DNA from: Candidatus Harrisonbacteria bacterium
GTDB taxonomy: Bacteria; Patescibacteriota; Minisyncoccia; UBA6257; 1-14-0-10-44-23
Length of the DNA: 49,223 bases
Assembly: GCA_023255625.1 (NCBI GenBank)
Contig: JAHFLF010000001.1
Coordinates: forward strand, 354,965-404,187
Reading direction: 5' to 3'
Made by a program: the position numbers and the translations under genes. Shown piece after piece: positions 2,912-49,223 of this stretch. Under the pieces are notes generated by a model. The model did no database searches. It had not been told where the DNA came from and saw only the letters and a program-made list of their open reading frames with translations. How positions within the stretch are numbered: the first letter of the stretch is position 1; every line of letters starts with the position of its first letter.

Positions 2912-3080
2912 GAGCTACGAATAACGAATTGGTTCACGAAAGTACGAATAAGGTATAAAATACATATAAGTCGAAAAATAATAATAATTAAAAAAATAAA
3001 AACGAATTACGAATAAAATACGAAAGCCGAAGAGATGCCGAGCCGCACTATTCGCACTTTCGTACAAAATTCGTAATTCG
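2912..3080. repeat. Intergenic palindrome, family D (ACGAATTACGAA units)
   Basis: acgaataacgaattggttcacgaaagtacgaata paired with attcgcactttcgtacaaaattcgtaattcgt. Confidence 0.75.
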
Positions 3081-5195
3081 TTGATCATTATGGATTTACA
3101 CAAACAAGAATTCTCGTTAGATTACGCAGGCCGCACCTTAAAATTCGAGGTTTCCCGGCTGGCCGAACAGGCGAGCGCCGCTGTGCTTGGCACATATGGC
3201 GACTCAACCGTTTTGGCCACGGTGGTCATGGGCAAAAAAGATAAAGAAAGCAGTTATTTCCCGCTGACGGTGGATTACGAAGAGCGATTTTATGCCGTCG
3301 GTAAAATTCTCGGCAGCCGCTTTGTGCGTCGCGAAGGAAAATCCAGCGAGGAGGCGGTTCTCTCCGGCCGAGTTATCGACCGGACTATTCGTCCACTCTT
3401 TGATGGGCGGATGCGCCGCGATGTTCAGGTGGTAGTTACTATTCTCTCGTATGACGAGGATGATGACTTAGACTTTCTGGCGCTAAATACCGCCTCAACG
3501 GCCTTGGCTATTTCGGACATTCCCTGGGCTGGACCAGTTGCGGGCGTAAAAATAGTTAAAAAAGATGGCGCGCTGATAGTTAATCCAAAAAATTCGCAAA
3601 TTGCGGAGGGGGCAACCTTTCAGATTTTCGCCGCCGGACCAAAAGACCGAATTAATATGATCGAAGCCGATGGACTGGAGCCAGCCGAAGCCGAGGTGCT
3701 TACGGGTTTTGAGCAGGCACAAAAAGAGATAAATACGCTAATCGAATTCCAAAACAGCATCGTCGCCAAAATTGGCAAACCAAAACAAAAAATTGTTTTG
3801 GCGGAGCTAGACCCGGCGGTCAAAGAAAAAATGGTCAGTTTTTTGAATGGAAAATTAGAGCCGGCAATTTATGCTGCAACTAAAATGGAGCATGAGGCGA
3901 GTTTGGCAAAAATCGCCGCTGATCTGAATGAACATCTGCGCGCAGATGGAGTAGACGAAAAAACAATTAAAGCGACAGGGGATTATCTGGAGAAGATGAT
4001 CAGCGAGATTGTGCATAGCGGGGCGATCACCTCCGGCAAACGCCCGGACGGACGAGGGATTGAGGAGGTTCGCGAACTGCATGCCCAGGTCGGGCTGCTG
4101 AAACGCACGCACGGTTCTGGCTTATTTATACGAGGCAACACGCAGTCGCTGGCGCTAGCCACGATTGGCACGCCCGGCCAGGAGCAGACGATAGAAACTA
4201 TGAGCTTCTCGGGCAAAAAACGCTTTATGTTGCACTACAACTTCCCGCAGTATTCAGTTGGGGAAACCGGCCCGTTCCGCGGCGCTGGTCGTCGCGAAAT
4301 TGGCCATGGGGCGCTGGCAGAAAAAGCATTGCGAGGCATGATCCCGACTAAAGAGGAATTCCCGTATGCGGTCCGAGTTGTTTCCGAAATTACCTCATCA
4401 AACGGTTCGTCTTCAATGGCCTCGGTTTGTGGTGCCACGCTCGCGCTAATGGATGCGGGCGTACCAATCAAAAAACCGGTAGCCGGAATCGCGATGGGTC
4501 TTATGTCCGCCAATAGCGAAAAAGATTTTAAAGTGCTCACTGATTTGCAGGGGGCAGAGGATCACTATGGCGACATGGACTTTAAAGTTGCTGGCACTAA
4601 AGAGGGTATTACAGCAATTCAGTTGGATGTAAAAATCATGGGACTGACTATGGAGATGGTGAAAACAACCTTGGAACAGGCCCGCAAAGCCAGATTGCAA
4701 ATCCTAGAGGTGATCACTGCTGCTTTACCGGCGCCGCGCAAAGAGATCTCGCCGCTGGCACCGCTTATCATGAGCGTTAAAATTGACCCGGCGAAAATCG
4801 GTGCAGTTATCGGCAGTGGCGGAAAAACAATCAACGGCATTATTGAAAAAACCGGCTGCATTGCCATCGATATCGACGACGATGGCCTGGTCTATGTCTC
4901 CGGTAAAGATAAAGAGACGACAATGGCGGCCTACAACGAGGTGCTGGCGATCGTGAAAGACTATCAGGTTGGCGAAATAGTCGAGGGCAATATCGTCAAG
5001 ATTTTGGAATTCGGGGCGATTGTTGAGCTAGATGCAAACCACGACGGCATGATCCATGTCAGCGAACTCAAGGATGGATTCGTGAAAACCGTCGGCGAGG
5101 TGGTCAAACTTGGCGATCATGTCCGAGTCAAAGTTATGAAAGTTGAGCCAAATGGAAAAATTGGCTTGTCGCTAAAGGCGATGGGGAAAGTTTAG
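3081..5195 (+). CDS. pnp: Polyribonucleotide nucleotidyltransferase (PNPase); likely start ATG at 3090
   Basis: Two RNase PH domains, KH (IGAVIGSGGKTINGIIEKTG) and S1 domain; GRGIEEVRELHAQVGLLKRTHGSGLFIRGNTQ. Confidence 0.97.
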   Translation: MIIMDLHKQEFSLDYAGRTLKFEVSRLAEQASAAVLGTYGDSTVLATVVMGKKDKESSYFPLTVDYEERFYAVGKILGSRFVRREGKSSEEAVLSGRVIDRTIRPLFDGRMRRDVQVVVTILSYDEDDDLDFLALNTASTALAISDIPWAGPVAGVKIVKKDGALIVNPKNSQIAEGATFQIFAAGPKDRINMIEADGLEPAEAEVLTGFEQAQKEINTLIEFQNSIVAKIGKPKQKIVLAELDPAVKEKMVSFLNGKLEPAIYAATKMEHEASLAKIAADLNEHLRADGVDEKTIKATGDYLEKMISEIVHSGAITSGKRPDGRGIEEVRELHAQVGLLKRTHGSGLFIRGNTQSLALATIGTPGQEQTIETMSFSGKKRFMLHYNFPQYSVGETGPFRGAGRREIGHGALAEKALRGMIPTKEEFPYAVRVVSEITSSNGSSSMASVCGATLALMDAGVPIKKPVAGIAMGLMSANSEKDFKVLTDLQGAEDHYGDMDFKVAGTKEGITAIQLDVKIMGLTMEMVKTTLEQARKARLQILEVITAALPAPRKEISPLAPLIMSVKIDPAKIGAVIGSGGKTINGIIEKTGCIAIDIDDDGLVYVSGKDKETTMAAYNEVLAIVKDYQVGEIVEGNIVKILEFGAIVELDANHDGMIHVSELKDGFVKTVGEVVKLGDHVRVKVMKVEPNGKIGLSLKAMGKV

Positions 5196-42711: not shown

Positions 42712-42741
42712 TGGATCACCTCCTTAGCTTCTTTTATAGCG

Positions 42742-42835
42742 CAGTATTCGCGAACACGCAAATATGCGCTAATATGCTAATGGAATCGGAACACTATTCG
42801 CATATTCGATTTATTAGCATGTTAGCGATTACTGT
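42742..42835. repeat. Intergenic palindrome, family A, abutting the exonuclease ATG
   Basis: cagtattcgcgaacacgcaaatatgcgctaatatgctaat ... attcgatttattagcatgttagcgattactgt-ATG. Confidence 0.88.
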
Positions 42836-44652: not shown

Positions 44653-44754
44653 GCCACAGTAATCACTAACACGCTAATACAGACGAATACGCGAATAAAA
44701 TCCGGACTCTTCTTTATTAGTATATTAGTCTTAATTAGCATTTTAGCGATTACT
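44653..44754. repeat. Intergenic palindrome, family A, upstream of mutM
   Basis: acagtaatcactaacacgctaatacagacgaatacgcgaat ... attagtatattagtcttaattagcattttagcgattact. Confidence 0.88.
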
Positions 44755-45708
44755 GTGCCCGAACTTCCCGAAGTTGAAACTGTGGTTCGTGATTTACGCC
44801 GGAAAGTTGTCGGCCAGACAATTACTGCTGTTTGGACTGACTGGCCGAAACTAATTAAGGATTTTGAGAATCAGAGTCGGCTGCATGTTTCTAAAAAAGC
44901 AGTCGCACATTTTCAGAAGCATCTTCCGGGCTTACGGATTGAACGGGTAGAGAGGCGAGCGAAAAATATTTTGATTTATCTTTCCGGCGGGCATTTGATG
45001 CTCGTACATCAAAAGATGACCGGGCATTTTCTCGTCGGTAAATGGCAGATAGAGAATGGCAAAGCAGTTGGTATTTCGCCGCGTGAGATTGTTGAGGATT
45101 CGTATAACCATCATGTGCATTTAATTTTCTCTCTATCGCCGGTTTCTTCTTCCCAACTAACTAAGCAACCAACTAACCAGGCAACTTATCCTATGCAGCT
45201 TGGGCTTTCAGATGTCCGAAAGTTTGCCAAAGTTTTGTTCGGTAAGCAGGAACAGATTGAATCATTGCCCGAGCTTGCTAATCTCGGCCCGGACGCGCTC
45301 GACCCACAGCTGACCATTTCGCAATTTCGCGAAATTGCGAAATGCCAAACCCGGCCAATCAAGCAGGTCTTGATGGACCCGTTTGTAATTGCCGGGATCG
45401 GCAATATTTACTCTGACGATATTTTGTGGCGGGCCAAAGTGCATCCAAAAACACGCGCTGCGGTGCTCAAGCCGGCGCAGCTTTCGGCTATTTATAAATC
45501 AATGAGGGTAGTTTTGACTAAGGCCGTGCGGCTGCGCGGTACCTCAACCAGCGACTTCCGCGATACCGACGGCAAAGAGGGCGGCTATACAGAATATCGG
45601 CTGGTGTATGGGCGCAAAGGCCAGCCGTGCCAGCGCTGCAAAACTCCGATTGAGCGGATGGTGATCGGTGGCCGCAGTGCGCATTTTTGTCCGAAGTGCC
45701 AACAGTAA
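44755..45708 (+). CDS. mutM: Formamidopyrimidine-DNA glycosylase (GTG start)
   Basis: (M)PELPEVETVVRDLRRKVVGQTI...GIGNIYSDDILWRAKVHP...CQRCKTPIERMVIGGRSAHFCPKCQ. Confidence 0.97.
   Translation: MPELPEVETVVRDLRRKVVGQTITAVWTDWPKLIKDFENQSRLHVSKKAVAHFQKHLPGLRIERVERRAKNILIYLSGGHLMLVHQKMTGHFLVGKWQIENGKAVGISPREIVEDSYNHHVHLIFSLSPVSSSQLTKQPTNQATYPMQLGLSDVRKFAKVLFGKQEQIESLPELANLGPDALDPQLTISQFREIAKCQTRPIKQVLMDPFVIAGIGNIYSDDILWRAKVHPKTRAAVLKPAQLSAIYKSMRVVLTKAVRLRGTSTSDFRDTDGKEGGYTEYRLVYGRKGQPCQRCKTPIERMVIGGRSAHFCPKCQQ
45152..45186. repeat. Family B single arm embedded in frame in mutM
   Basis: cccaactaactaagcaaccaactaaccaggcaact encoding SQLTKQPTNQAT. Confidence 0.85.
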
Positions 45709-45833
45709 TCGCCAACATGCGAATTAAGACTAATACGCTAATCGTTGCCTTGCGTGAAACTTTGCGCGGTAGTACTCTTGGAGTATTGTTTTTATTAGCA
45801 TATTAGTTATATTAGCGTGTTCGTGAATACTGT
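45704..45833. repeat. Intergenic palindrome, family A, between mutM and pyrG
   Basis: cagtaatcgccaacatgcgaattaagactaatacgctaat ... attagcatattagttatattagcgtgttcgtgaatactgt; mutM TAA in left arm. Confidence 0.88.
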
Positions 45834-47648: not shown

Positions 47649-48269
47649 ATGGGTTCCCCGACTCTTCAGACATTGGGCCTCTTGTTCCCCCCGGAGATCA
47701 CGGACGAGCGGCTCGTCCGGTTGCACTCCTCTGGTGCGTTCGCCAGAGTGCTCGTCCATCCGGACTACGATGCTCTCGCCGCCGATCTGGCCGGTGAGGG
47801 TGGCGAGCCCCTGATCCGTCGCGCTCGGCGGCTCACCGTGGAGACGTGCGGTCCGAAGCTGAATGCGCCCTTCAGTGGGGCGCGGATCCTGACCGATGTC
47901 TACGGCGAGGGTGAGGGTTCTTTCGACCTCACCACGGTCGAGCCGTTCCATCTCGACACATCGCTCCGGCTCGGTCCTGCTCTCGAGGCCGCGATGCCTC
48001 GGCGCACCAAGATCTCCATGGGTGCGCGGCGCAAGCGGTGGTTCGTGAAGAACGCGAACGCCCGCACGCTGCCGGAGCCCCAGCAGGCCCTGGCCGACCA
48101 GTGGCGCAAGGAGAAGAAGTTCATCTTCTTCGGCGACTCGAGCTGGGAGGTCAAGGACGACAACGAGTACTTCGAGTACGCGTACGACGACGGCAGGCAG
48201 TGGGACGACCGCTGCAGCTGGTCCGACGACGGTGTGGACGGCCTCTACTGCGTCCTCTCCGGCAAGTAG
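47649..48269 (+). CDS. DGR target protein with C-terminal variable repeat (ORF track starts 47613; ATG 47649 follows an AAGGAG Shine-Dalgarno)
   Basis: Clear SD AAGGAGacctgcgATG; GC-rich codon usage; last about 41 codons homologous to the TR at 48697-48819 with A-only differences. Confidence 0.88.
   Translation: MGSPTLQTLGLLFPPEITDERLVRLHSSGAFARVLVHPDYDALAADLAGEGGEPLIRRARRLTVETCGPKLNAPFSGARILTDVYGEGEGSFDLTTVEPFHLDTSLRLGPALEAAMPRRTKISMGARRKRWFVKNANARTLPEPQQALADQWRKEKKFIFFGDSSWEVKDDNEYFEYAYDDGRQWDDRCSWSDDGVDGLYCVLSGK
48143..48265 (+). repeat. DGR variable repeat (VR)
   Basis: 123-nt ungapped match to the TR, 13 mismatches, all at TR adenines; ends one base before the last sense codon is complete. 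Confidence 0.93.
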
Positions 48270-48276
48270 GCCCCTG

Positions 48277-48323
48277 GCGATCAGGGTATCTGGCGGTTTT
48301 CGGACCGCTGGATCCCTGGTCGC
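48277..48323. repeat. Hairpin immediately downstream of VR
   Basis: GCGATCAGGG-T-ATCTGGCGGT-TTTCGG-ACCGCTGGAT-CCCTGGTCGC, 20 bp with three G-T pairs. Confidence 0.8.
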
Positions 48324-48336
48324 TTGGTTCTCGCAT

Positions 48337-48376
48337 TTCGACCCCGACGGCTCCGCCTCGGGGTCGTCGCTTTTTT
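48337..48376 (+). terminator. Intrinsic terminator downstream of the DGR target gene
   Basis: cGACCCCGacggctccgcCTCGGGGTCgtcgcTTTTTT. Confidence 0.85.
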
Positions 48377-48696
48377 GATATATAATTATCTATGGATAGT
48401 AGGTGGACAACACGCGGTTTCGTTTGGCAAGGCAGGTTTACCCGCCTTTGGCGGGCGGGGCTTCGTGTGGCCGAATTCTAGAATCTGTTTGTGCAGAGTT
48501 GCAGCGGGTTAGATCGTCAGATCCAGGTAAACTTTCTGCGAGCGTCGCGAACAACATTCTTATACATAACATTATTACTTGGTGCACCGCGCTAGCGCAT
48601 TATAGATGCGGCATACGATTCAATCCGAAGAATCCGCCAGCTGGCGGATCAACGGGTGGTGGCTGTTACAGCGCCTTGGATGGCGCAGTGCACATT

Positions 48697-48819
48697 CTGG
48701 GAGGACAAGGACGACAACGAGTACTTCGAGTACGCGTACGACGACGGCAAGCAGTGGAACGACAACTACAACTGGTCCGACAACGATGTGGACAGCAACT
48801 ACTGCATCCTCTCCGGCAA
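48697..48819 (+). repeat. DGR template repeat (TR)
   Basis: AAC-rich copy of the VR: aacgacaactacaactggtccgacaacgatgtggacagcaactac. Confidence 0.93.
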
Positions 48820-48820
48820 C

Positions 48821-49223
48821 TCATTGGTTATGTGGGCTGCGCTGCGCGTTTCCTTTTTGCGTTTGGGTGCGCGCAGAATCTTGCTCAACTCTTTTCAACC
48901 AACCGCCGAGCATTTTTCCAATTTCATTGAATTTTTCCGAAAGCAGCGCATACTGTTTATGTCCGAGATCTCCGGTTTCCCAAAGGATCATTAAGAAGAA
49001 TTTCAGCGTATCGAATTTGGTGTTTGCTTTTTGCAGTGCCGGAAGTTTTTGTTCTTTTCTAAGATATTGCGCGATAAACATTAATTCCATTGTTTCTATA
49101 AACAAAGAATCTATTTTTTCGCCAAGTGTATACTTCGATGGTTTCTTAATATGGATAATAATCTCGTGCCACAGTTTGTAAGCGCTAATCAAATGTTGCA
49201 AAATACTCAAGTTGCCGTGGGGG
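48821..49223 (-). CDS. avd: bAvd-like DGR accessory protein (four-helix bundle); 5' end open at the window edge
   Basis: SILQHLISAYKLWHEIIIHIKKPSKYTLGEKIDSLFIETMELMFIAQYLRKEQKLPALQKANTKFDTLKFFLMILWE...LLSEKFNEIGKMLGGW; frame stays open upstream of the TTG at 49210 (..PHGN). Confidence 0.9.
   Translation of the reverse strand, partial: PHGNLSILQHLISAYKLWHEIIIHIKKPSKYTLGEKIDSLFIETMELMFIAQYLRKEQKLPALQKANTKFDTLKFFLMILWETGDLGHKQYALLSEKFNEIGKMLGGWLKRVEQDSARTQTQKGNAQRSPHNQ

Follow-up and report, generated by a model that had tools for sequence, protein, structure and literature searches.

At the end of the window analysed here, a stretch of 49,223 nucleotides (G000:C8:354965-404187), lies a complete cellular diversity-generating retroelement (DGR), carried by a Parcubacteria-type genome of the same family as Ca. 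Harrisonbacteria CG10_49_15. The locus is ordered as a target gene ending in the variable repeat (VR), a structured leader RNA, the template repeat (TR), avd in reversed orientation, a simple-repeat tract and the reverse transcriptase (RT), with the features inside the window collected in Table 1. The window stops at 49223 because the assembly breaks in the poly-G tract between avd and the RT.

Table 1. Features of the DGR locus, in window coordinates unless prefixed
Feature	Position	Strand	Remarks
DGR target gene, 206 aa	47649..48269	+	C-terminus is the VR; no known domain family
Variable repeat (VR)	48143..48265	+	Adenine-specific mismatches against the TR
Likely terminator 3′ of the target gene	48340..48376	+	G+C-rich hairpin, then a T run; direct sequence reading
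Structured leader RNA 5′ of the TR	48406..48700	+	Covariation; best-supported domain 48576-48685
Template repeat (TR), AAC-rich, non-coding	48697..48819	+	Outside any plausible gene
avd (bAvd), from internal TTG	48821..49210	-	Read from its ATG, starts past the window (L004:4217) and runs through the tract
5′ end of the RT frame, from nearest upstream ATG	49193..49223	+	Antisense to avd; runs to C8:405254 (L004:4158-5255)
First five G of the poly-G tract	49219..49223	+	Followed past the window by 10 N and 12 G (C8:404188-404209), then the RT

The retroelement and its target gene

The VR and TR form a gapless alignment of 123 nt that contains 13 mismatches, each of them at a TR adenine (9 A>G, 2 A>C and 2 A>T). 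As the TR has 38 A in its 123 positions, the hypergeometric probability of 13 out of 13 mismatches falling on A is 4.4e-8. The mismatches fall in 11 codons and are non-synonymous in 11/11, and the repeat edge is marked by a G at 48266 that stands against a C on the TR side, a non-A difference just beyond the aligned copies. Our re-alignment agrees with a preliminary description of the sequence, which had reported the gapless repeats, the restriction of all 13 differences to adenines of the downstream copy and the change of 11 codons; its placement of the upstream copy at the C-terminus of an open reading frame and of the downstream copy in non-coding DNA is likewise borne out. Only one TR/VR pair of this type was found in the 931,659-base genome. 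Among relatives in which avd is divergent from the RT, the same adenine signature is present in 110 of 138, with 1811 of 1897 mismatches located at A.

The target protein had been described as having an N-terminus of no recognised family, and this holds, with no Pfam or NCBIfam family matched, while homologues do exist in the same family and order. The closest, 62% identical, is found in G002, a genome of the same family as that of the window; weaker homologues occur in G188 and G165, target homologues are rare overall, and a scan of the genome contig set with the target protein returned no relative. AlphaFold2 models the C-terminal region with confidence, and none of the PDB matches to it was significant, the best being a C-type lectin (E=0.55). 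The target gene has a GC content of about 65% and another open reading frame (L004:8501-9067) one of about 61%, in surroundings that are mostly at 45-50%, which suggests either a different origin or a codon bias for the two.

The reversed gene adjoining the TR, initially called bAvd-like, clears the Pfam bAvd cut-off (51.1 vs 40 bits), though it remains under the NCBIfam Avd cut-off (67 vs 80). An RT had been predicted past the window end, upstream of avd on the - strand. Extension of the contig did find it, as an RVT_1 match (E=8.8e-24) at G000:C8:404430-405095 that is the sole RVT_1 match in the genome; the predicted orientation was wrong, as the RT is on the + strand and divergent from avd. 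Its frame (L004) is open and contains the motifs GLPLGNLTSQ and YADD, and alignment to 14 relatives leaves about 70 columns invariant. With adenine-specific TR/VR differences, a C-terminal VR, Avd and an intact DGR-type RT all in place, the original identification of a DGR stands. The RT also carries an in-frame insert of about 25 residues (L004:4751-4827), located between conserved motifs and free of stops, which derives from a dispersed palindromic element that has matches at four or more further sites in the genome. Elsewhere in the window, intergenic repeats of the form CAGTAATC..AACACGC..AATA lie at 42741-42835, 44655-44757 and 45702-45833, as direct and inverted copies between genes.

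A structured leader RNA 5′ of the template repeat

The region between the target terminator and the TR is alignable over 105 loci. RNAalifold applied to 38 leader sequences gave 45 pairs, of which 40 are supported by compensatory changes. Across the alignment 94% of cells pair and 448 cells are changed on both sides, compared with 37-48% pairing and 64-119 such cells in a control where partners were slid by 1-3 columns. A covariance model of the 3′ domain of the leader (model R1) was built from 25 loci, this one included, and scores 64 bits at 48576-48685 in the window. It matches 88 of 99 loci outside its building set, is weak in two divergent viral loci (L187 and L197), and has no match in co-directional viral DGRs. 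In a blind search of 380 genomes of the phylum, model R1 gave 79 matches in 65 genomes, and at least 65 of the 79 are located 463-597 nt upstream of a same-strand RT, among the RTs listed. No match to the leader was obtained from any of the 4227 models of Rfam 15 up to E=1. The most likely role of the leader is as the 5′ portion of the DGR RNA; its binding by the RT or Avd is an inference. In one locus (L082) the leader occurs twice on the - strand, at 3021-3136 and 3502-3617, the copies being 481 nt apart and of identical score, suggesting a duplicated RNA-TR unit.

Simple repeats and reading frames at the avd/RT junction

Runs of nine or more G occur only twice in the genome, one of them being the junction tract, and runs of nine or more C are absent. 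The second G run (G000:C8:109898-109906; L264) is close to the 5′ end of an opposite-strand open reading frame of 355 codons, and it is possible that this is a second length-variable gene.

We collected relatives as RTs of the same order with their flanks, followed by 80 loci each from named genomes and IMG/VR, and a phylum-wide search later added 29 loci. A simple repeat is present at the avd/RT junction in 79 of the 80 named-genome loci, from records that include Yanofsky-, Nomura-, Kaiser-, Jorgensen-, Woese- and Berkelbacteria as well as others; it is mostly a poly-G of 7-13, and otherwise (GA)n or (GT)8. The later loci carry a junction tract in 27 of 29 cases, (CT)10 and (ATTG)7 among them, so that six repeat units are seen at one site: poly-G, (GA)n, (CT)n, (GT)n, (GGTT)n and (ATTG)n. 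Within the order set, G≥7 is found at 44 of 62 junctions, against only 10 runs of G or C of at least seven elsewhere in 437 kb. The co-directional avd/RT viral DGRs (about 65 loci) show no junction tract except for one short (GA)4, and an exact search of viral contigs for the avd/RT start motif found nothing. In most loci the tract sits 10-65 nt upstream of the RT. Its length ranges from 7 to 14 G among related genomes, and on the RT tree at least 52 changes of length and at least six changes of unit are required. We also considered that the tract might be part of a conserved sequence motif and rejected this, as a flanking consensus is absent; the tract is conserved as a repeat and not as a sequence.

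Several loci deserve separate description. The RT of G002 that is 100% identical to the RT of PFBD01000008.1 (Ca. Harrisonbacteria CG10_big_fil_rev_8_21_14_0_10_49_15) belongs to a genome with three DGR-type RTs, on contigs C34, C30 and C16 (L010, L044 and L079), two of them with poly-G tracts and one with (GA)n. L096, L097 and L098 have no junction tract and instead carry (TGGA)8-10 just after the RT, about 1030 nt past the RT start, between the RT and a convergent target gene. In many tract loci (e.g. L045, L050 and L062) the start codons of avd and the RT share bases in a head-to-head CATATG.

The position of the tract relative to the two genes was assessed by a frame test in 114 non-redundant loci, in which each n mod 3 class was scored for an ATG located no more than 75 nt past the tract and open into the avd core. 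Such a class exists in 114 of 114 loci, and in 103 of them there is exactly one. Two controls were used, a dinucleotide shuffle and a shuffle of the spacer alone with RT codons kept, the latter being added because antisense ATGs can arise from RT codons close to the start; no open class remained for 49% of loci in the former and 36% in the latter. In a held-out phylum set, at least one class is open in 27/27 loci and exactly one in 22/27. Past the tract avd stays open for a median of 120 codons (under 95 in 3 of 114). At the tract lengths as assembled, avd is in frame in 23 of 101 loci and off in 47 and 31 for the other two phases, compared with an in-frame ATG in 24 of 24 divergent-avd loci that have no tract (Fisher 5e-13); a tract-less locus found later (L303) lacks such an ATG for avd. 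The majority of RTs have an ATG of their own downstream of the tract, and 26 loci have an RT without a start there. Among those in which each gene has a unique open class, a count by eye finds the class shared in 16 loci and different in 2 (P=2e-6 against 1/3), an agreement that may come in part from in-register antisense codons. VR-TR divergence did not differ by phase (medians 0.134 in-frame and 0.147 out-of-frame), which supports neither side, and the locus set offers no two near-identical loci that differ in tract length.

For the locus in the window, avd can be read through the tract from an ATG on the RT side, and the nearest in-frame ATG of the RT, at 49193, lies across the tract, in antisense orientation to avd. 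The RT frame contains no ATG, GTG or TTG between the tract and its conserved core. A G count divisible by three opens both genes, and the phase remains undetermined because the 10-N gap hides the true count. An avd start that leaves the tract uncrossed is also possible, at the internal TTG (49210).

Probable phase variation of the mutator and its alternatives

We consider it probable that this complete DGR is subject to slipped-strand phase variation of its mutator, a switching that we infer in the absence of reads, strain pairs or expression data. This interpretation is favored because the tract lies between the start and the core of the gene, is kept whatever its unit, occurs in all phases and is mostly off-frame. 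Counting against it are the start codons that follow the tract, near enough to serve avd in 72 of 114 loci and present for most RTs, the hidden tract length in this locus, and the tract-less L303. As in known DGRs, the TR RNA with its leader would be copied by the RT and Avd, and the adenine-mutated cDNA would replace the VR. Slipped-strand gain or loss of repeat units would move avd into and out of frame, and in this locus and similar ones the RT as well, such that only a fraction of cells could run the mutator at any time. Avd has been described as essential for retrohoming (PMC10053308) and for cDNA synthesis (PMC6642488); on that basis the mutator would be inactive in the majority of cells, with a reversible switch to the active state in a few. 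With somewhat less assurance, we think it likely that the arrangement extends across the CPR, with a hypermutable repeat across the head-to-head starts of avd and the RT gating targeted DGR hypermutation as a second, random source of mutation, in some loci through both genes, and with an undescribed structured RNA carrying the template.

It is possible, if unlikely, that the tract has a transcriptional or nucleic-acid-structure role (promoter spacing for avd or the RT, a G-quadruplex or a part of the DGR RNA) and is not a frame switch. Its distance from the RT in most loci is one at which a promoter could sit, most of the repeats are G-rich on the + strand and many RTs have an ATG after it, but (CT)n, (GT)n and (ATTG)n occur too without any flanking consensus, and on a transcriptional role a single open avd frame per locus is unexpected. 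A transcriptional effect could also exist in addition to the frame switch. We have stronger doubts that off-frame tracts are read through by transcriptional slippage or ribosomal frameshifting, which would provide a constant low level of Avd and no heritable switch. All three phases are indeed tolerated, and homopolymers of 8-14 are slippery for polymerases; however, di- and tetranucleotide repeats, which slip far less in transcription than homopolymers, occupy the same site.

An ordinary DGR in which the tract is a neutral mutational relic, with Avd starting after it at GTG or TTG, appears very improbable. In 72 of 114 loci (this one and 71 others) the first 12 codons past the tract include such a codon, or rarely an ATG, from which a slightly shorter Avd could start, and the NCBIfam Avd profile match in this locus begins at TTG 49210. 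Against this, 36 single-class loci have no start codon shortly after the tract, tract-less relatives have their avd ATG at the matching place, and the ATG-open frame across the tract exists in every locus, above both controls. Finally, although some sequencers are known to produce spurious poly-G and N gaps fall at the tract in two assemblies (this one and L183), we rejected a sequencing or assembly artefact as scarcely credible, given recurrence at the same homologous site in more than 100 genomes and within long contigs (L049 on a 984-kb contig), non-G repeats in some loci and the lack of such a tract in co-directional DGRs.

If phase variation of the mutator is true, evolvability would itself be regulated by evolvability. 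The control of DGR activity is an open question, for which a repeat-length switch acting on avd and the RT offers a concrete and testable mechanism, with avd being out of frame in most assemblies, and the leader RNA gives an entry point to template recognition by these RTs. DGRs in the CPR are already known, Paul et al. 2017 reportedly being their main survey, and the junction switch and the leader RNA are the additions made here. Titles, abstracts and text searches of the open-access literature, a scope that does not cover that survey, yielded no description of a DGR repeat-length switch nor of a structured leader RNA 5′ of the TR.

Relative to the prototype DGR of Bordetella phage BPP-1, the present locus differs in having avd reversed between the TR and RT, a long structured RNA before the TR and a repeat at the avd/RT junction. 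The two have in common the RT, Avd, TR, C-terminal VR and adenine-specific changes, as described for BPP-1 (PMC6642488). As a cellular DGR in a Patescibacteria genome, the locus also resembles the Patescibacteria-restricted DGR clade 2 of Roux et al. 2021 (PMC8144416), who report that the targets of such DGRs lack a recognisable domain, as here. The text of that study is silent on avd and on a repeat tract, and membership of the present locus in the clade is putative. The closest parallel for the junction itself is with the contingency loci of Neisseria, Campylobacter and Helicobacter, in which a homopolymer, di- or tetranucleotide tract lies near the start of a frame and one of three lengths is in frame. 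The junction resembles such loci in having a tract within or just ahead of the 5′ coding region, in only some lengths being in frame and in a length that varies among related genomes. Unlike in those loci, the gene being switched, by a process inferred here and not observed, would belong to a targeted mutator.
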